In this document: piece by piece, positions 8,336-32,932 of the stretch | How the letters are laid out: each line of letters begins with the position of its first letter | How positions within the stretch are numbered: the stretch's first letter is position 1 | Virus record (IMG/VR): IMGVR_UViG_3300033149_005121 | Location: 1-34,920 of that record | DNA: 34,920 nt | From: a virus | Direction: 5' to 3' (one strand) | Made by a program: the position numbers and the translations under genes | Notes under the pieces: model-generated | Databases searched by the model: none | Seen by the model: only the letters and a program-made list of their open reading frames with translations | Told to the model about the DNA's origin: nothing

Positions 8336-9142
8336 TTGAAAAAAGCATCTCAAAAAGTTTTAGATTATAGGATTAGATTAGCCAAGCGCCATCCTAATAG
8401 TTGCCTCTCACCCGAGGAAATTATTGCTAAGGCTCTTGAGAGACGAGTTTATGTTGCTTGGAGTGGTGGGAGGTGTAGCACCATGGTGGTTCACCTTGCA
8501 ATACAACAGGACCCAGATATACCAATTGTATTCACAAATACTGGAGTAGAATACCCTGAGACAGTCAAATTTGTTAGAAATCTTGCCAAAGAGTGGAGCC
8601 TGAATTTCACCGAATTAAAACCTGATTTTGTGTTTTGGGATATAGTAAAAGAATATGGATTCCCACAGTTAAGAGGCTCCACTAAGAAAAAAGGGGTGCC
8701 AAGACGCCCTAAATGTTGTGAATTACTTAAAGAAAAGCCGCCTCTCGACTTTATGGAGAAACATGGCTTAGAGGGTGTGATAACAGGAATACGAGTTGAG
8801 GAGTCAAGGCCTAGAGCACTTGCAATATATAAAAAAGGACCATACTATTATGCGAAGCGTGATAGGATGTGGAAGTTTCACCCAATAGCGCTGATATCCT
8901 TAGAGGAATTGATGGATTATCATAGAGCATACAATATACCTATGAATCCACTTTATAAAAAAGGGCTTCCAAGAATAGGTTGTATGCCCTGCACAGGGTT
9001 CATAGGTTGGAGAGAACAATTGAAAGCTACAAATCCAAAGCTATTTATGTGGCTAAATCGAGAGTATCAAAAATGGAAGGGGACCCCAACCTTATGGGAG
9101 TACCAAGACATATATGATATATGCGATGAGAGTCTAAATTAA
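8336..9142 (+). CDS. PAPS reductase-like ATP pyrophosphatase
   Basis: The protein has 268 residues. Residues 38-50 (VYVAWSGGRCSTM) are the PP-loop that binds ATP in PAPS reductase/DndC/N-type pyrophosphatases, although the usual SGGKDS is SGGRCS here. VFTNTGVEYPET follows, as in the family, then KCCELLK (Cys127, Cys128), GIRVEES (151-157) and a CMPC pair (216, 219), which could hold an Fe-S cluster or zinc. Family members activate a substrate with ATP for reduction or sulfur transfer. In a viral island with methyltransferases, a role in base modification or sulfur chemistry is plausible but unproven. It starts at TTG 8336 and is AT-rich compared with its neighbours. Confidence 0.75.
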   Translation: MKKASQKVLDYRIRLAKRHPNSCLSPEEIIAKALERRVYVAWSGGRCSTMVVHLAIQQDPDIPIVFTNTGVEYPETVKFVRNLAKEWSLNFTELKPDFVFWDIVKEYGFPQLRGSTKKKGVPRRPKCCELLKEKPPLDFMEKHGLEGVITGIRVEESRPRALAIYKKGPYYYAKRDRMWKFHPIALISLEELMDYHRAYNIPMNPLYKKGLPRIGCMPCTGFIGWREQLKATNPKLFMWLNREYQKWKGTPTLWEYQDIYDICDESLN

Positions 9143-9214: not shown

Positions 9215-10441
9215 ATGAGTGTGTTAGATGACTACGTGAATAGAATCATAACGGGGGACTGCTGTGAGGTAATGAGGCAGCTCCCAGACAACTCTATTGA
9301 TCTTGTTGTTACTTCCCCACCATATTGGGCCCTACGCGATTATGGGGAGGAGACGGCGCGTGTGTGGGGAGGAGAACCAGAGTGTGAGCATGATTTTGAA
9401 CTCAGGAAAGTCCCATCACGGGGCAACAGAGACATAAGCTTTAATGAGCGATGGGGGAATTCACCTGGACAGAGGAAAGTAGAAAAAAAGAATAAAATAG
9501 ACGCGAGTGTTGGATTCTGCTCTAAATGCGGAGCCTGGAAAGGGCAGCTCGGACTAGAACCCCACCCAGAGATGTATATCCAACACTTAACCGAGATATG
9601 CAGGGAGATCAAGAGGATATTGAAACCATCTGGGAGCTTTTGGCTCAACCTCGGAGACACATACTTTGGCGGAGGAGGAACCTATGGAAAACCAAAGGAC
9701 TGGAAAGACCTCCACACTAACCAAAACTACCCAGATGGCTCATTCTTCAAGAATAGGAACAAGCTCCGCTCGAATTGGCTTCAGCCCAAGCAGCTTCTCG
9801 GAATCCCTTGGAGGGTTGCTATAGCTCTTCAAGAGGATGGATGGATTCTACGGAACTGCTTAGTGTGGTACAAACCGAATCACCTACCAGAATCAGTTAA
9901 AGACAGGCTTACGAAGAGCTACGAGTTTTTCTTCTTCTTCGTGAAGAAGCGTAAATACTTCTTCGACCTTGATGCAATAAGGGTTCCTTATAAACAAAGC
10001 ACATTAAAGAGGGAGAGATATGGATATAAGACTGCTATGCGTGGGAGGTATATGGGCCCATGGGAGAAGCGTGATAGAGTCAAGGATCAAGAGTTTTTAA
10101 ACCCACTAGGAAAAAACCCTGGAGACGTTTGGGCGATACCAGTCCAGCCATTCCACGATGCACACTTTGCAGTTTTTCCTCCTCAGCTAATTGAACCAAT
10201 AATTAAAGCAGGTTGCCCAGTTGGAGGTATTGTCCTTGACCCCTTTGCTGGGACTGGGACCACGCTTAGAGTGGCTCGGGGCCTTGGAAGGCATTTTATT
10301 GGTATTGAGTTGAACCCCAAATATGTTAAAATGGCCCACGCAAGGGTGAAAGCCTCTAAATACGTTAATAGGCCAGACGGTGTTGCTTCTCTCACTGAGA
10401 TATTGAATGGGGAGGGTGCGGAATCTTCCAAGAAACCCTAA
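9215..10441 (+). CDS. DNA methyltransferase, beta class (SPPY type)
   Basis: The protein has 408 residues. Motif IV (TSPPYW, residues 33-38) precedes motif I (VLDPFAGTGTT, near 339-349), the order of beta-class amino methyltransferases. SPPY is most frequent in N4-cytosine enzymes, DPPY in N6-adenine enzymes. The middle (40-330) is the target-recognition region; it contains C-x-x-C-rich EHDFEL and CSKCGAW elements that may bind zinc. The enzyme would transfer methyl from S-adenosylmethionine to DNA. No restriction partner is adjacent, so it is probably protective. Its first ~95 and last ~40 nucleotides are nearly identical to the next gene. Confidence 0.88.
   Translation: MSVLDDYVNRIITGDCCEVMRQLPDNSIDLVVTSPPYWALRDYGEETARVWGGEPECEHDFELRKVPSRGNRDISFNERWGNSPGQRKVEKKNKIDASVGFCSKCGAWKGQLGLEPHPEMYIQHLTEICREIKRILKPSGSFWLNLGDTYFGGGGTYGKPKDWKDLHTNQNYPDGSFFKNRNKLRSNWLQPKQLLGIPWRVAIALQEDGWILRNCLVWYKPNHLPESVKDRLTKSYEFFFFFVKKRKYFFDLDAIRVPYKQSTLKRERYGYKTAMRGRYMGPWEKRDRVKDQEFLNPLGKNPGDVWAIPVQPFHDAHFAVFPPQLIEPIIKAGCPVGGIVLDPFAGTGTTLRVARGLGRHFIGIELNPKYVKMAHARVKASKYVNRPDGVASLTEILNGEGAESSKKP
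9242..9300 (+). repeat. 59-bp identical block, copy in methyltransferase 1
   Basis: This stretch is identical base for base to 10502-10560 in the second methyltransferase, and similarity extends back to both start codons. It encodes IITGDCCEVMRQLPDNSID. Identity at third codon positions shows recent duplication or gene conversion. Confidence 0.9.
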
Positions 10442-10474: not shown

Positions 10475-11908
10475 ATGGGCGTGTTAGACGACTACGTGAA
10501 CAGAATCATAACGGGGGACTGCTGTGAGGTAATGAGGCAGCTCCCAGACAACTCTATTGACCTTGTTGTAACAGACCCGCCTTATGGTATTGGCTTTATG
10601 GGGAAGGACTGGGATAAAGCCCTGCCTCCAAGGGATGCATTCGAGGAAATGTTACGAGTGTTGAAACCTGGGGCCTTGGCCTTCATAATGAGTAGCCCTC
10701 GGCAGGATGTGCTCTGGAGGATGCTGGCCATGCTTGAAGAGGTGGGCTTTGAACTCAAACAGAGCTTTATTTCCTGGATATATAAGACTGGGTTCCCGAA
10801 AGCCTACGACATAAGCAAAGGGATTGATAGAAGGCTTGGTGCAGAACGAAAGAAGGTGAAAGCAAAGGTAAGATCACACACAAAATATCATTCGAGGGCT
10901 GGGAATACGCGCCCTTGGTTTAAACTAGCTGAAGAGGGTAGATGGATGGTGGACAGCGATGAACCTGTGTCTGAGGAGGCCAAGCGGTGGAATGGTTGGA
11001 AGTCAATCGCTGGTTTGAAGCCTGCCCTCGAATGTATTTTGATGGTGTATAAGCCTCTCAGCGAAAAAACAATAGTTGATAATGTGTTAAAGTGGGGAAC
11101 GGGGGCGATAAACGTGGATATATGTCGAATACCAACAAAAGAAGATTTAGGACGACCAATAAGCAAACGAGAGGAAGCCTCTTCAGTTGTAGCATATAAT
11201 TGGAGCAAATACCCCAATCCCTTAAGAGGACAATTTATTGATAATTCAAAGGGAAAAGGACGTTTTCCAGCTAACCTTCTCGTATCCGATAGGGCACTTG
11301 ACACTGGGAAAATAACTAAATCAAAAATAAGAAAACCATCGAAAACAGAGCTTGAAAACGATGGTTATAAAAAAATGAGTGTCTATGGCAAATATTATGA
11401 GATTAGATCAACTCGCGGTGTGGAGGATATAGGTGACCAAAGTCGATTTTTTGACCTTGATGCTTGGGCTAAACACCATGGGTTCCTAGACGTACCTAAA
11501 CCATCTAAACGAGAACGAGACATGGGGTTAAACAGATTCCCTATTAGAAAAGTGGAGGCTCTTAGAGGCAATTTTGATGGTTCGATAAACAAAAGAACTA
11601 AGGGGCAGCCCAGCTATGCGAGGAACACTCACCCCACGGTTAAGCCTGTAAAACTGATGGCCTATCTAATAGAGCTTGGATGTCCTCCTAGTGGGGTTGT
11701 CCTTGACCCTTTTGTTGGGAGTGGGACCACTTGCATAGCCGCCAAGCAGCTACGCCGTAAATGGATAGGTATTGAGTTGAACCCTGAGTATGCTGAGATG
11801 GCCCGCGCGAGGGTGGAAGCTGCGAAATATGTTAAGAGGCCAAATCGTGTTATCCCCCTCACTGAAATATTGAATGGGGAGGATGCGGAATCTTCCAAGA
11901 AACCCTAA
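10475..11908 (+). CDS. DNA methyltransferase, beta class (DPPY type)
   Basis: The protein has 477 residues. Motif IV is TDPPYG (33-38) and motif I is VLDPFVGSGTT (near 408), again in beta-class order; DPPY points to N6-adenine or N4-cytosine as target. The middle contains RFPANLLVSDRA and a HPTVKP-LMAYL element just before motif I, as in many phage solitary methylases. The central region shares little with the neighbour, whereas both ends are nearly identical. That suggests the pair arose by tandem duplication followed by replacement of the recognition region, or by gene conversion of the ends. It probably modifies a different sequence from methyltransferase 1. Confidence 0.88.
   Translation: MGVLDDYVNRIITGDCCEVMRQLPDNSIDLVVTDPPYGIGFMGKDWDKALPPRDAFEEMLRVLKPGALAFIMSSPRQDVLWRMLAMLEEVGFELKQSFISWIYKTGFPKAYDISKGIDRRLGAERKKVKAKVRSHTKYHSRAGNTRPWFKLAEEGRWMVDSDEPVSEEAKRWNGWKSIAGLKPALECILMVYKPLSEKTIVDNVLKWGTGAINVDICRIPTKEDLGRPISKREEASSVVAYNWSKYPNPLRGQFIDNSKGKGRFPANLLVSDRALDTGKITKSKIRKPSKTELENDGYKKMSVYGKYYEIRSTRGVEDIGDQSRFFDLDAWAKHHGFLDVPKPSKRERDMGLNRFPIRKVEALRGNFDGSINKRTKGQPSYARNTHPTVKPVKLMAYLIELGCPPSGVVLDPFVGSGTTCIAAKQLRRKWIGIELNPEYAEMARARVEAAKYVKRPNRVIPLTEILNGEDAESSKKP
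10502..10560 (+). repeat. 59-bp identical block, copy in methyltransferase 2
   Basis: This is the partner of 9242-9300. The two copies could recombine to delete one gene and leave a chimera. Confidence 0.9.
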
Positions 11909-22109: not shown

Positions 22110-22138
22110 AAAATATATAAACTAACAATCGAGGTATA
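22110..22138 (+). promoter_or_regulatory. TATA promoter of the ASCH/ParB-ABC-GNAT operon
   Basis: AAAATATATAAA is followed about 18 bases later by GAGGTATAAT, then the GTG start at 22143. This right-hand GGTATA occurs at several promoters in this genome. It is the only promoter seen for the four-gene operon to 25503. Confidence 0.5.
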
Positions 22139-22142
22139 ATAT

Positions 22143-22460
22143 GTGCGGGGCATACTCTTTAAAAAACACTTCATAGACAAAATCCTAAGCGGAGAGAAAA
22201 CCCAGACAAGGAGGGTTCATAAAAAGCCTCTATATCGCGGCGAATTGGTTGCAGTGAAAACGAGTTATTCTAAATGCTCAGGCATCGTTTTAAGAATCCT
22301 TAAAGTGTGGAAAGAGCGGCTTGGAGACATCTCTGAGGCCGATGCAAGGAAAGAGGGCTGTGGAAGCATCGAGGGGTTCAAGCAGGAGTGGATTAGGATA
22401 AACAAGGTTTGGGACCCAAACCTGGAAGTGACCGTTTACGAGTTCGAGGTGGTTAGATGA
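22143..22460 (+). CDS. ASCH-domain (PUA-like) protein
   Basis: The protein has 105 residues. ILFKKHFIDKILSGEKTQTRR is the classic ASCH opening (K-x-I-L-x-G-x-K-T-x-T-R-R); then YRGELVAVKTSYSKCSGIVLRILKV and a helix with EADARKEG, W and a last strand VTVYEFEVV. ASCH domains have a PUA-like barrel and bind RNA or modified bases; some act as nucleases. It starts with GTG 22143, 33 bases from the TATA box. It overlaps the next gene by four bases and leads an operon ending in the ParB-ABC-GNAT fusion, suggesting nucleic-acid modification sensing. Confidence 0.8.
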   Translation: MRGILFKKHFIDKILSGEKTQTRRVHKKPLYRGELVAVKTSYSKCSGIVLRILKVWKERLGDISEADARKEGCGSIEGFKQEWIRINKVWDPNLEVTVYEFEVVR

Positions 22461-23416
22461 GCATAAGTATTGGGGCCAAATTCGAGGAATTTACCTTCGA
22501 CAATAATGTCCTTGTCAATTTGCAAGAGATATTTGATATATCTCTAGACGATGCTAAAATATTATATGTGTTTTTAAGAGCCAAACATCCTGTATCTTCA
22601 TATATGCTTATCAATTTCATAGATACTCGAAACATAAGCCAGACCTTAAATTACCTGTGTGCTAAAGGACTAATAAAGCCAACATTCAAGAATATAAATG
22701 ACTCTTTCAACATTAAGGGGCAGTCAATTTCAAATTTCCTTGACTACAGGCGTTTTTCAAATAAATGCAAGTTTTTCAAAATATCAAAAGTGGCCATTAT
22801 TACTATAATAGAAACAATAAAAAAACACAAGGAAACTCTAAGAACCCTGTCAAATGTGTATGATTTCCTCATATCCCGACCAGAGAAAACGTTTTCATTA
22901 CCAAGAATACCAGTAGTCTCGGATTACTCCCTGGTTAGTCGTAATTCCTCTCTTAAGCAGCATCTCCCTCAACTATATTTCCCAGAGGATAAACAGCTTT
23001 TAAATGATGTGTCAGACTTCATAAATCTACTAGGTAAGACCATATACGAGTTTGAAGTATTATCCACGGCTATTCTAGCCTCCAGGCCGTTTATCATCAC
23101 AGAGAACATTAAGAACATAACACAGCCACGTAGTAAGCGTTATCACTCCGCCAAAAACTTGTTGATGTCTGGGTTCTTAAGGGAGATTAAAATCGACCCA
23201 AACACGATCAAATATAATGAGTTATACGAGTATTGGAACAAGAGAAAGCGGAATCAATATGATAGAGCACATTTAAAGGACGTAACCTTTCTAACCCTGG
23301 ATAAAGACAACACTCTTAGAATAATTGAAGTGTATAAACACAAGTATTCTGAGAGCATTAAATGCCTTCAATCTGTTTTGGAGGGTGTTTTCTATGAACA
23401 GCGTGTGGGGGATTAA
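22457..23416 (+). CDS. AT-rich winged-helix protein of unknown role
   Basis: The protein has 319 residues. The N-terminal 80 (EIFDISLDDAKILYVFLRA and SQTLNYLCAKGLIKPTF) are shaped like a TrmB-type winged helix. A second winged-helix-like segment appears in the middle (VLSTAILASRPFIITENI, then SAKNLLMSGFLREIKI). The C-terminal part is mixed strand and helix (DVTFLTLDKDNTLRIIEVYKHK). No family is recognised. The base composition is clearly AT-richer than the flanking genes, a sign of different ancestry. It overlaps the ASCH gene by four bases and the 62-aa gene by 23. Confidence 0.6.
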   Translation: MSISIGAKFEEFTFDNNVLVNLQEIFDISLDDAKILYVFLRAKHPVSSYMLINFIDTRNISQTLNYLCAKGLIKPTFKNINDSFNIKGQSISNFLDYRRFSNKCKFFKISKVAIITIIETIKKHKETLRTLSNVYDFLISRPEKTFSLPRIPVVSDYSLVSRNSSLKQHLPQLYFPEDKQLLNDVSDFINLLGKTIYEFEVLSTAILASRPFIITENIKNITQPRSKRYHSAKNLLMSGFLREIKIDPNTIKYNELYEYWNKRKRNQYDRAHLKDVTFLTLDKDNTLRIIEVYKHKYSESIKCLQSVLEGVFYEQRVGD

Positions 23417-23582
23417 GAAGCCTGAGACACGGGAGGAGCACCATATATTCTTAAATGAATTGTATGGGGCTGTGGAGGATTTGAGGAAACTTGGCTTTAA
23501 GGCTAGGTTTGACTTTTCCTCCTCTAAAGATATTCTCTTGGTGATACGGCGTGAAACTGCCCAAAAGTGTTTGGAAAGATAA
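23394..23582 (+). CDS. Small conserved-looking protein linked to ParB-ABC-GNAT
   Basis: The protein has 62 residues from ATG 23394, with a GGAGGG ribosome site at about 23380. EEHHIFLNELYGAVEDLRKLG is a helix and KARFDFSSSKDILLVIRR a strand pair. It overlaps the next gene, whose GTG start is at 23551, by 32 bases, so coupling is tight. It may be a partner subunit of the fusion protein. A longer upstream frame from 23325 lies inside the previous gene and is unlikely. Confidence 0.55.
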   Translation: MNSVWGIKKPETREEHHIFLNELYGAVEDLRKLGFKARFDFSSSKDILLVIRRETAQKCLER

Positions 23583-25503
23583 GGTCAAGATTGCAATCCC
23601 AAAGCAATATGAGCATCTTGTCGAGGATATTACAAGACTTGTGAAAGACAGGGATAATCCTAATCGGATGACTCAGGCACAACACAGGGCTCTACGTGAG
23701 AGCCTTCGAGAGTTTGGCTGGGTGTATCCTCTTGTTGCTGATAGACAAGGGGTTTTCGCGGATGGGGAGCAAAGGCATTATGTGGCTCTTGAGATGGGGG
23801 AGAAGTATGCTCCAGTGCTTCGATTGGAGCTTACAGATGCGCATAGAAGGCTTCTTAGGCAAATCTTGAACAAGTTAAAGGGCAAACACGATAGGGCCTT
23901 GGATGCGCTTGAGTATAAGCGGCTGGTGGATGCGAACCTGGAATACGAGTTGAAAACGATGCTAACCCTCAAGGACATAGACGTCAAAAAGACCTTGCAG
24001 CTTTTGGAGCCCCAGAAAACTCCTCCTAAAACTAAGCCTAGTAAACCGAGGAAAGCAGCACAAAAGCCAAAGGAGAGGAGGGTGGAGAAAAAGCCAAAGG
24101 AGGCTGTGGAGAAGCATAACCGTTTTCACTTTGAGCTTGCCTTTGAGTCCAGGCCTGTGAGGGTGTCTGATCGAATACTGGACATTCAACAGGCTTTTGG
24201 TATCGGGGTGGAGGAGGGGATTAGCTTCCCCGTTTACAAAGATTTTAGCTTCCAATATGATGATGGGGACATTATTTTTGTGACTGGTGATAGTGGGGCG
24301 GGGAAGAGTGTGTTTTTACAGGCTTTCAAGGATCACTTGGAGTCCAAGGGAAAAATCGTATTCACTATGAGGGATATAACACCTGGGGAGGGGGCCATCG
24401 TGGAGCATATTGGTGAGTCCACGGATGAGGCCATTAAGTTTCTCAGTGTTGCTGGGATGGCGGAGGCCTACCTGATGCTCAGACGTTTTGAGGACTTAAG
24501 CGATGGCCAGAAATATCGTTATCTGCTTGCTAGGCTATTCTGTAGTGAGGCCGATGTCTATTTTGTGGATAACTTCGCGGAGAGCCTGGACCGAATAGCG
24601 GCGAACGTGGTGGCCTACAATATCCAGAAGTGGGCTAGGAAAGCTGGGAAAATGGTTGTGTTGGCCTCCACTCATCGGGATTTCCTCGAAAACCTTAAGC
24701 CAGATATTCTTATCGATAAGCGGTTTGGAGACGAGGTGGATGTACGGTATTTCAAGCCCTCCAGGGGGCCAATTAGCTTCCAAAAAGATATGCAAATACA
24801 AAAGGGCTCAATAGAGGATTTTAGGAGGCTTGAACGCTTCCACTACATCACGGCGCATAGTTTTCCAGGTCTCCAGGTTTGGAAGCTGGTTTACGGCGAG
24901 GAGCTAGTCGGGGTTGTGGTTTACACGCCTCCCGACATATCGCTTAGTCTCAGAAATCAACTATTTCCAGAGTATCGGGGGAGCATGAAATACAAGAGCA
25001 TCAGGGTGAGGCTGAATAACGAGGTTTGCAGGCTAGCGCGGATAATAATCCATCCGAAGTGGAGGGGCGCGGGGCTAGCCCATCACCTCGTACGGGAGAC
25101 CCTCCCCCTCCAGGGTAAGCGGATCGTGGAGTGTATTGCAGCCATGCCCAAATACAATCCATTCCTAGAGAAAGCAGGGTTTAAACTGGTGGGTGAGATA
25201 CCGTTTTCAGAGGGGCAGCAAAAACTGGTCTCTCTCCTAGAGTCCTACGGGATAGATATTTGGAGGCTTCCAAGCAAGCACTACAGACAACAGTTTCTAG
25301 CGGGGTTAAGCGAGGCCCAATTGGAGGCCCTCAAAGATGCTGTGTTGGCCAACATAAGCGGCATCACAGGGCTTATGAACCTGGGTAGAAGCCGCATAAA
25401 GCAGCTTCTAGAGGCTGGTGTGACGGAGGGCTTAGATGGTGTGTTGGGGTATTTGGCACCCACTAGGCGGCTTTACCTGTATTGGGAGAACCCTGGTTTG
25501 TAG
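23551..25503 (+). CDS. ParB-ABC ATPase-GNAT fusion protein (COG2401-like)
   Basis: The protein has 650 residues. Residues 1-150 are a ParB-like domain with the DGEQRHYVA box (71-79). Residues 155-188 are a Lys/Pro linker. Residues 190-435 are an ABC ATPase: Walker A GDSGAGKS (246-253), signature LSDGQ (316-320), Walker B VYFVDN (336-341), switch His375. The residue after the Walker B Asp is Asn, not the usual Glu. Residues 440-600 are a GNAT acetyltransferase (LARIIIHPKWRGAGLAHHLV); the last ~60 may be a helix-hairpin DNA-binding tail. ABC-plus-acetyltransferase proteins are known in archaea as COG2401 with unclear function. A DNA-bound, ATP-gated acylation role, by analogy with Mu Mom, is an inference. 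Confidence 0.82.
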   Translation: MKLPKSVWKDKVKIAIPKQYEHLVEDITRLVKDRDNPNRMTQAQHRALRESLREFGWVYPLVADRQGVFADGEQRHYVALEMGEKYAPVLRLELTDAHRRLLRQILNKLKGKHDRALDALEYKRLVDANLEYELKTMLTLKDIDVKKTLQLLEPQKTPPKTKPSKPRKAAQKPKERRVEKKPKEAVEKHNRFHFELAFESRPVRVSDRILDIQQAFGIGVEEGISFPVYKDFSFQYDDGDIIFVTGDSGAGKSVFLQAFKDHLESKGKIVFTMRDITPGEGAIVEHIGESTDEAIKFLSVAGMAEAYLMLRRFEDLSDGQKYRYLLARLFCSEADVYFVDNFAESLDRIAANVVAYNIQKWARKAGKMVVLASTHRDFLENLKPDILIDKRFGDEVDVRYFKPSRGPISFQKDMQIQKGSIEDFRRLERFHYITAHSFPGLQVWKLVYGEELVGVVVYTPPDISLSLRNQLFPEYRGSMKYKSIRVRLNNEVCRLARIIIHPKWRGAGLAHHLVRETLPLQGKRIVECIAAMPKYNPFLEKAGFKLVGEIPFSEGQQKLVSLLESYGIDIWRLPSKHYRQQFLAGLSEAQLEALKDAVLANISGITGLMNLGRSRIKQLLEAGVTEGLDGVLGYLAPTRRLYLYWENPGL

Positions 25504-26184: not shown

Positions 26185-26388
26185 ATGGACAAATATGAGA
26201 AACTCCTCTCTCGGCCAATCCCCGAGGAGGAAAAAAAGAGACTCAGGGCTAAATGCCCTGATTGGGAGCCCCGCTGCATATTCCGAGTAGGAATAACGCT
26301 TTGTGCGGAGGAAAAGGGCGTAAAATGCCCCTATGTTGATTATGGAGGTGCATACGAGGAGGAGGATGGAGACGAGCAAGGAACCTGA
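26185..26388 (+). CDS. Four-cysteine miniprotein A
   Basis: The protein has 67 residues. The core is KCPDWEPRCIFRVGITLC followed by AEEKGVKCPY: C-x6-C-x8-C-x7-C-P. The N-terminus is a charged helix and the C-terminus acidic (EEEDGDEQ). Two paralogues with the same core follow directly (26366, 26508). Four regularly spaced cysteines suggest a zinc or Fe-S site in a compact fold. Function unknown. Confidence 0.65.
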   Translation: MDKYEKLLSRPIPEEEKKRLRAKCPDWEPRCIFRVGITLCAEEKGVKCPYVDYGGAYEEEDGDEQGT

Positions 26389-26533
26389 TAAATGCCCAGA
26401 CTGGGAGAGATGCATAATTCGAGTGATGATCTCGATGTGCTCGAAAGACAAGGGCATAGAATGCCCTCTTAAGGACTTAGAGCTTGCAGAGGAGAGGAGA
26501 ATCACTAATGAGAATCAAGGAACTCAAGGATAA
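26366..26533 (+). CDS. Four-cysteine miniprotein B
   Basis: The protein has 55 residues from ATG 26366, overlapping A by 23 bases. The core KCPDWERCIIRVMISMC followed by SKDKGIECPL is C-x5-C-x8-C-x7-C-P. It is clearly a paralogue of A and C, with a short acidic/polar tail. Independent conservation of the cysteines and of the KG-[VI]-x-CP end in three tandem genes is strong evidence that these short ORFs are real. Confidence 0.62.
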   Translation: METSKEPDKCPDWERCIIRVMISMCSKDKGIECPLKDLELAEERRITNENQGTQG

Positions 26534-26666
26534 ATGCTCACACTGGACCCACGGCTGCATATTCAAAATAGGAGTGGTTCAGTGTGCAGAGGCGAAGGGC
26601 GTAGAATGCCCTTATGATGAAATAGACTTAGAGGAGGTGATGGCTGAACTTGACGCTATTGAGTGA
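26508..26666 (+). CDS. Four-cysteine miniprotein C
   Basis: The protein has 52 residues from ATG 26508, overlapping B by 26 bases and preceded by a GGAGAGG ribosome site. The core KCSHWTHGCIFKIGVVQC followed by AEAKGVECPY is C-x6-C-x8-C-x7-C-P; the tail is acidic (DEIDLEEVMAELDAIE). It is closest to A in the core. The following zinc-ribbon gene starts within its end. Confidence 0.62.
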   Translation: MRIKELKDKCSHWTHGCIFKIGVVQCAEAKGVECPYDEIDLEEVMAELDAIE

Positions 26667-31348: not shown

Positions 31349-32932
31349 GTGGGTGAGGCGATAGATCAGGTCCTTGTGCGGGGCAGTCGGGACAAGTTCC
31401 GAATCTTCGCGGATTACTGCTGGAGGCTGGAGCCTGGACACATCAGACCGTGGTCCAATCGCCGATACCAGCAATATGTTTTGAAAAGGGTGGAGGAGTG
31501 GTGTGCTGCCAACAAGGTGCCAGTCCAAGGCTACTTGGACGACTTGAGGCGGCGCGGCGTGGTGCTGGAAAAACTGGAGTTCTACCAGAATGAAATCACC
31601 CAGCTGCTTGGACGCGCCGACAGGCCGAAGCGCATCCACATCCAAGCCCCCCGCGAACACGCCAAGACCACACTCCTCAGCGTCAAGTACCCGATTTGGA
31701 GGCTTGGCCGAAACCCCAACCTCCGAATCCTGATTGTGTCCAAGACGGCCACCTTGGCCCAAGCCATCGTGCGGGAGATACGGCGCAATATCGAGTCCAA
31801 CCCGAGAATCCACAAGGTGTTTCCAAACCTGAAACCCGCCACGCCCTGGAGCGACACCGAGATATGTGTCCAGCGGGACCGCGTGATGAAAACCAGCACC
31901 CTCCGCGGGATTGGGCTGTACGGGAGCATCACGGGGTTCAGGGCCGACATCATCATTTTGGACGACCCGTTTGACCAGCATGAGACCAGAACCGAGGGCC
32001 AAAGGCTGAAGATCGAGGAGTTCATAGAGAAGGTTGTTATCCCGATCCTGGACCCCGAGGGGGAGGTGATATATGTGGGCACCAGGTGGCACTACGATGA
32101 TTATTGGGGGAAGCTACTCTCACGGAGCCAGGAGACGGGAGGGGAGGTGTTCTGCAAGGTGTACCAAGCCATCAACTACCTGGACCCAGACGACCCCGAG
32201 GGAGGGCCCAGATACTCGCTGTGGCCCCAGAAGTGGAGCCTGGAGAAACTGGAGGAGCGGAGGCGGGACATCGGCACACCAAACTTCAACTGCCTCTATC
32301 AGAATGATCCGCGGGGCCTGGAGGGCCTGTTTTTCAAAAAGGAGTGGATCACCTGGTACGACCCCCACATCCTCAAAACCATCCCCGAGCTATACATTTT
32401 CCAGGGCGTGGACCCAGCCATCGGCGAGTCGCCTGAGTCCAAGCGGACCGCCATCGCCACGGTGGCCTTGGACCCCCGAGACATGGGTATATTCATGTTG
32501 GACATCTACGCGGCCCAAATAGACTTCCCAACACAGCTGAAAAAGATAAGCGAATACTCCAAGCGGACCGCGTGGCTCACCATACCCGAGAAGCGCGGCC
32601 TAAAACCACTGAAACTTGGAGTAGAAGCGAACGCCTACCAGAAGGCCCTAAGCCGCACAGCCCAGATGGCAGCCCTCCCAGTGGTGGAATGCAAGACTAC
32701 GGAGGGGAAACCCGACCGAATGCTCAGTCTCCAACCCCACTTCGAGAACGGCCGCATACGATGGCCCGACCCCAAGAAACTAGGGTACACGCCGAGGTGG
32801 CTGGAGGAGTTGTTGAACGAGTACCTCAGCTTCCCGAGGGGCAAATACACGGATATGTTGGACGCCTTAGACTTCGCCATCGAGGTGGCCGACAAAAGCG
32901 GGAGCGCGGAGGTCACGGCCTTTTTCGGCTAA
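31349..32932 (+). CDS. terL: Terminase large subunit
   Basis: The protein has 527 residues. A Walker A-like loop APREHAKTT (100-108), Walker B IIILDDPFD (201-209) and coupling motif YVGTRW (242-247) form the ATPase; the nuclease begins with GVDPAIGES (Asp355) and ends with an acidic DMLDALDFAIE helix. The order matches phage TerL, the packaging motor that cuts concatemers and pumps DNA through the portal. The Walker A is of the R-E-H-x-K-[ST]-T type found in several TerL lineages. Start is GTG 31349. Downstream small genes separate it from the portal. Confidence 0.92.
   Translation: MGEAIDQVLVRGSRDKFRIFADYCWRLEPGHIRPWSNRRYQQYVLKRVEEWCAANKVPVQGYLDDLRRRGVVLEKLEFYQNEITQLLGRADRPKRIHIQAPREHAKTTLLSVKYPIWRLGRNPNLRILIVSKTATLAQAIVREIRRNIESNPRIHKVFPNLKPATPWSDTEICVQRDRVMKTSTLRGIGLYGSITGFRADIIILDDPFDQHETRTEGQRLKIEEFIEKVVIPILDPEGEVIYVGTRWHYDDYWGKLLSRSQETGGEVFCKVYQAINYLDPDDPEGGPRYSLWPQKWSLEKLEERRRDIGTPNFNCLYQNDPRGLEGLFFKKEWITWYDPHILKTIPELYIFQGVDPAIGESPESKRTAIATVALDPRDMGIFMLDIYAAQIDFPTQLKKISEYSKRTAWLTIPEKRGLKPLKLGVEANAYQKALSRTAQMAALPVVECKTTEGKPDRMLSLQPHFENGRIRWPDPKKLGYTPRWLEELLNEYLSFPRGKYTDMLDALDFAIEVADKSGSAEVTAFFG

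Follow-up and report, generated by a model that had tools for sequence, protein, structure and literature searches.

What is the function of a viral protein that joins a ParB-like domain, an ABC ATPase domain and a GNAT domain in a single chain? Such a protein, 650 residues long, is encoded by the last of four overlapping genes in the 34,920-base virus record IMGVR_UViG_3300033149_005121 (the whole of this stretch is called the window below), and the first of the four encodes an ASCH-domain protein. The window comes from a tailed virus whose host is probably an archaeon. An initial annotation had taken the four genes for one undescribed system of DNA modification or handling. We conclude from sequence comparisons that DNA modification is the most likely function of the 650-residue protein, which would then share the functional class of Mom of phage Mu while belonging to a different protein family. 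The main evidence is that relatives with coupled ABC and GNAT domains (ABC-GNAT) are exchanged, at one position in otherwise similar genomes, with Mom and with DNA methyltransferases.

Swaps between ABC-GNAT, Mom and DNA methyltransferases

Related contigs were located by scanning with an alignment of ParB proteins, some of them partnered with Mom and others with ABC-GNAT. Their flanking DNA blocks, mostly 77–93% identical, surround a common layout of ParB, a slot of variable content, and the small and large terminase subunits (TerS and TerL). The slot is occupied by ABC-GNAT (locus L300), Mom (L302 and L303) or a C5-cytosine methyltransferase (L289 and L291), and L293 has an N6/N4-methyltransferase joined to ParB in one protein. 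Pfam identifies these genes as Mom (2.2e-50), C5 methylase (8.5e-46) and N6_N4_Mtase (1.2e-14). Similarly, the Arthrobacter phages Wyborn and EastWest, whose flanking proteins are 67, 62, 71 and 54% identical, carry Mom (6.6e-59) and ABC-GNAT, respectively, at the same locus position. The ParB tree requires at least seven changes between Mom and ABC-GNAT partners, and 43 of 80 ParB-like loci have a DNA-modification gene, recognised by similarity within 1.5 kb, that adjoins ParB or is fused to it (26 methyltransferase, 9 Mom, 4 ABC-GNAT, 3 QueC and 1 TAGT). Because Mom and DNA methyltransferases take the place of ABC-GNAT next to one and the same ParB-like gene, ABC-GNAT most likely modifies DNA bases, and the initial proposal of a DNA-modification role is strengthened.

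Relatives of the ABC-GNAT type are widespread. A scan of viral contigs with the single 650-residue chain as query gave no matches; an alignment-based scan succeeded, and one such scan gave at least 524 confirmed matches, 80 of which were retained. Further relatives are present in 62 phage records, in 907 plasmid records (mostly from enterobacteria and Acinetobacter) and in 78 genome loci, many of which come from Bathyarchaeota, from other Thermoproteota/Thaumarchaeota and from Planctomycetota. The weakest genome loci were ordinary ABC ATPases and were removed by score, and 153 relatives were retained for locus counts. Their settings include archaeal proviruses, SSU5-like phage-plasmids and actinophages, so the earlier picture of ABC-GNAT as archaeal proteins was too narrow.

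Many of these genes lie near the terminase: in 101 of the 153 loci a same-strand TerL gene is no more than 3.5 kb away, upstream or downstream. It is mostly directly upstream of ABC-GNAT in bathyarchaeal proviruses, and TerS/TerL lie shortly 3′ of ABC-GNAT in L008, L010 and the SSU5-like phages, whose gene order is ParB, ParB, ABC, GNAT, a small helix-turn-helix (HTH) gene, TerS and TerL; Pseudoalteromonas phage SL25 has the order ParB, ABC-GNAT, TerS-like, TerL. This proximity would be expected if ParB-ABC-GNAT were a packaging factor that helps terminase choose or process DNA, the ABC domain clamping DNA while the GNAT domain acetylates a terminase or capsid protein. However, sister phages have Mom or methyltransferases in the same terminase-side slot, so adjacency to terminase is a property of the slot and the case for a packaging role is weakened. 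In addition, EastWest has no annotated terminase within about 4 kb of its ABC-GNAT gene, and that of L114 adjoins ribonucleotide reductase and replication genes. We consider a packaging role quite unlikely.

Several of these loci have other features of interest. The Bathyarchaeota assembly A05DMB-2 contains at least six ABC-GNAT loci (L016, L019, L026, L035, L043 and L046), most of them beside TerL, and these are several proviruses. On the 45-kb and 109-kb viral contigs L100 and L114, ABC-GNAT adjoins a class II ribonucleotide reductase gene (confirmed by Pfam in L114), and other neighbours resemble PolB, PCNA and RFC as judged by eye only. Gordonia phage NHagos has a formyltransferase-domain gene (L008 1826–2473, PF00551 2.1e-8) between ABC-GNAT and terminase, which could bear on the nature of the acyl group. 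In phage Jace an aspartate decarboxylase gene (L007 7065–7490, PF02261 2e-33) lies directly 3′ of ABC-GNAT; aspartate decarboxylases of this type produce beta-alanine.

The operon and the domains of the fusion protein

The four frames of the operon are intact and overlap by 4, 23 and 32 bases, in agreement with the initial annotation, and a Shine-Dalgarno-like sequence is present 5′ of each. The features of the locus are as follows (aa, amino acids):

22110–22122, + strand: TATA-like element AAAAATATATAAA, candidate archaeal promoter; the TTTAWATA copy here reads on the minus strand
22143–22460, + strand: ASCH-domain protein, 105 aa, GTG start (PF04266)
22457–23416, + strand: 319-aa protein, ATG start; no relatives found
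23394–23582, + strand: 62-aa protein, ATG start; no relatives found
23551–25503, + strand: ParB-ABC-GNAT fusion, 650 aa, GTG start (Pfam, PHROGs, full-length relatives L092/L093)
23608–23997, + strand: ParB/Srx-like domain, residues ~20–149 (phrog_620 2e-16, phrog_498 1.4e-18)
23998–24150, + strand: Lys/Pro-rich linker, residues ~150–200 (sequence)
24163–24735, + strand: ABC ATPase domain, residues ~205–395 (PF00005, ABC_tran, 5.1e-11, above cut-off; alignment)
24286–24309, + strand: Walker A, GDSGAGKS (alignment)
24496–24510, + strand: ABC signature, LSDGQ (alignment)
24571–24573, + strand: Asn341 codon AAC at the Walker-B catalytic Glu position, FVDN where relatives have DE (alignment)
24790–25230, + strand: GNAT domain, with His-Tyr dyad at residues 431–432 and acyl-coenzyme A (acyl-CoA) motif RGAGLA at 505–510 (alignment, model, Foldseek)
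25231–25500, + strand: C-terminal, mostly helical domain, residues ~561–650, common to the SSU5/archaeal branch (alignment and model)
31349–32932: TerL of the window

One TATA-like element, a candidate for the shared promoter of the initial annotation, lies about 22 bases 5′ of the ASCH start. TTTAWATA occurs 11 times in the window where 2.5 occurrences are expected, and this enrichment fits archaeal promoters and a putative archaeal host.

The four genes do not form one conserved system as the initial annotation had supposed. The search that it called for, for the four together elsewhere, found that only the ASCH gene recurs with ParB-ABC-GNAT; no relatives were found for the other two genes (319 and 62 aa), and the four-gene unit was rejected on this ground. 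The 319-aa protein, earlier called a winged helix, could not be confirmed as one, since it matches no Pfam or PHROGs family above cut-off and its single-sequence model is unusable (predicted local distance difference test, pLDDT, 33); its gene is probably an accessory insertion.

The three domains assigned earlier to the 650-residue chain are borne out by Pfam, PHROGs and a structure model. The ParB-like region has no Pfam ParB match in the window chain and matches ParB chain 5k5d in the PDB weakly (E 0.0055); the separate ParB gene of L044 matches PF02195 at 4.8e-10. Walker A, the LSxGQ signature, the D-loop and the H-loop of the ABC domain are all intact. GNAT Pfam models give values of 7e-4 to 5e-3, below their cut-offs, on the window chain alone, and the GNAT domain of its relative L300 scores above the PF00583 cut-off. 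An AlphaFold model of the GNAT region built from a 50-row alignment has pLDDT 91, and its best PDB matches by Foldseek are GNAT structures; the acyl-CoA motif R/Q-x-x-G-x-G/A is intact as RGAGLA. The closest full-length relatives, L092 and L093, are 39% identical to the window chain and 88% identical to each other (and were counted as one lineage), and apart from these two and the window, no collected locus was recognised as having the triple fusion.

Elsewhere in the window, the right end carries the portal gene and the left end protease, scaffold and major head genes. Two N6/N4 DNA methyltransferases (9215–10441 and 10475–11908) have nearly identical N-terminal ~37 residues and C-terminal ends and different middles, a pattern that we read from the sequences as a duplication with a replaced centre, and they adjoin a gene for a PAPS reductase-domain protein (8336–9142, PF01507 4e-28). 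Three overlapping small open reading frames at 26185–26666 are alike and contain Cys; the two that were tested have no Pfam match. PADLOC found no defence system, only weak ATPase and methyltransferase-ParB matches.

Proposed acyl-transfer chemistry, the ATP site and the ASCH protein

The His-Tyr dyad is among the residues invariant in all 50 rows of the ABC-GNAT alignment, and it is also present in 9 of 9 Mom and 5 of 5 TmcA sequences. It is not found at the corresponding place in the 15 RimI-like and 28 other GNATs that were checked (HY occurs elsewhere in one RimI-like protein and in one control, and one further control proved to be an ABC-GNAT itself). This pattern suggests a nucleobase acyltransferase. 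GNATs that act on other substrates must also be considered, since the fold is generic, RNA polymerase is known to be modified by phage GNATs (PMC7824862), and the structural matches include TmcA and NAT10; the GNAT domain could thus acetylate a host protein or RNA during host takeover, as do phiKMV Rac or the tRNA acetyltransferases. A host target is disfavoured by the lack of the dyad in RimI-like GNATs, by the slot swaps with Mom and DNA methyltransferases and by the ParB-like partner common to the swapped enzymes, and we regard it as improbable. The idea that the domain is specially related to TmcA/NAT10 (rank 2 by Foldseek; hhalign 92.8%) was dropped because a cleaned RimI set scored equally (92.1%).

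A number of observations weigh against assigning base modification to the window protein. Every swap that was observed falls within the compact branch of ABC-GNAT (phrog_11143), whereas the window chain belongs to the C-terminally extended SSU5/archaeal branch; phrog_11143 matches the window chain at 9.7e-32 and the two branches are homologous over the ABC domain and part of the GNAT domain, but they are divergent, and the function of the window protein would be carried over by this homology. Most archaeal relatives have no adjoining ParB-like gene, and the operon in the window is 5.8 kb from TerL. In profile comparisons the GNAT domain is no nearer to TmcA than to RimI and is more weakly related to Mom; the window chain does not match the Mom family PF25680, and only one of 50 relatives does so, at E 0.1. 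Finally, the Walker-B catalytic Glu of ABC ATPases is replaced by Asn341 in the window chain, which may impair ATP turnover.

This Glu is present in all readable relatives (recognised by pattern in 149 and by eye in L063, L092 and L093; the pattern missed L054, which reads VWAADEF). Because the Glu is Asn, the window ABC domain may bind ATP as a switch and turn over little of it. Of the ATP-gated acyl transfer first proposed, the acyl-transfer part is supported by an intact GNAT motif and fold, and the gating is doubtful in the window copy. The substitution, found in the window alone, could alternatively mark a decayed copy, in which the gene descends from a modifier and is ATPase-inactive, perhaps surviving as a DNA-binding or competitive relic; the distance of the cassette from TerL and the two orphan genes inside it are in keeping with such decay. 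Nonetheless, the 650-aa frame is open and Walker A, the signature, the D- and H-loops and the GNAT motif are all intact, and natural ABC sites that lack the Glu can retain an ATP-binding role. Decay therefore seems unlikely to us.

The ASCH protein recurs with ABC-GNAT across loci, which supports the link made in the initial annotation. ASCH genes are present in 20 of 154 loci (window included), where they mostly adjoin ABC-GNAT and are often convergent with it, not co-directional, and a control set of 80 ParB loci (405 kb) contains none. The gene order in L092 and L093 is ASCH, ParB-ABC-GNAT, an HTH-like gene in the TerS position, TerL; that in L044 is ASCH, ABC-GNAT, ParB, a gene in the TerS position, TerL, although the L044 ASCH protein scores 18.5 bits, below the Pfam cut-off of 21.2. 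The window ASCH protein matches PF04266 at 2.8e-8 (above cut-off), and in the PDB its family profile finds only N4-acetylcytidine amidohydrolases of the YqfB type (8.6e-5 and 6.3e-4). YqfB activity requires Lys21, Thr24, Arg26 and Glu74 (PMC6972931), and these correspond in conserved columns to K19, T22, R24 and E71 of the window protein, which thus shares with YqfB the ASCH fold, the Thr-Lys-Glu triad and the Arg oxyanion residue. It differs from YqfB at Asp27, His70 and Tyr89, which are not conserved, and scores 14.5 bits against the NCBIfam equivalog NF003443, far below the cut-off of 93. We hypothesise from these residues that it erases or reads a mark made by the fusion protein.

A DNA-modifying enzyme of this kind could work as follows, where we infer DNA as the substrate, the acyl group and the base that receives it, the succession of events and what the ASCH protein does: the ParB-like domain would engage viral DNA, the ABC domain would bind ATP and dimerise on it, and the GNAT domain would move an acyl group from acyl-CoA onto the exocyclic amino group of a base. 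The mark, placed on the genome before or during packaging, would protect it from host restriction, and the ASCH protein would read that mark or strip it from free nucleotides as YqfB does. In its fullest form, the idea is that archaeal and bacterial viruses have a DNA acyltransferase that depends on ATP and adds an N-acyl mark, of which N4-acetyl-deoxycytidine is one example, at the time of packaging, and that some of them pair it with an ASCH eraser, giving a writer and an eraser of a base mark not yet reported; we consider this doubtful as a whole.

Known systems and significance

The system cannot be called undescribed, since a GNAT coupled to an ABC ATPase had already been predicted to add an uncharacterised acyl modification to a base in DNA (Iyer et al. 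2013, as cited in PMC7824862). As far as that citation describes it, the domain pair, an ABC ATPase coupled to a GNAT in a viral genome, and the predicted function are those of the window, which differs in its ParB domain fused in the chain, its 5′ ASCH gene and its Walker-B Asn. Mom (PF25680), whose family acyl-modifies adenine in DNA, is, like the window protein, a member of the GNAT superfamily with a His-Tyr dyad, has a ParB-like gene directly upstream in several phages and is interchangeable with ABC-GNAT at its locus, but it has no ABC domain. The SSU5-like ParB/ParB/ABC/GNAT cluster has the domains of the window protein in the same order, including the C-terminal extension; its ABC and GNAT are separate genes, no ASCH gene was seen in it and terminase is directly 3′. 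Its genes are annotated only as ABC transporter or similar. The (PIN)-GNAT-EVE operons with ASCH genes, for which base acetylation was proposed (PMC7641849), also combine GNAT with PUA/ASCH-type domains, but they are different operons with an EVE fusion and without ABC or ParB. DpdB, DndB and the ParB-methylase are ParB-type proteins that accompany other DNA-modification systems.

The literature searched contained nothing on COG2401, or on SSU5 together with ABC-GNAT-type genes. The comparative evidence for a widespread predicted DNA modifier looks new; the triple fusion is rare, and its ABC site is possibly hydrolysis-deficient. Since the slot swaps pair ABC-GNAT phages with Mom-bearing sisters, a decade-old prediction can now be tested. 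If it is true, the spread of the family (at least 524 viral matches, 907 plasmid records and many Bathyarchaeota proviruses) would mean that a common DNA modification has so far gone unseen, and this would bear on restriction evasion and on the SSU5-like phage-plasmids of enterobacteria.

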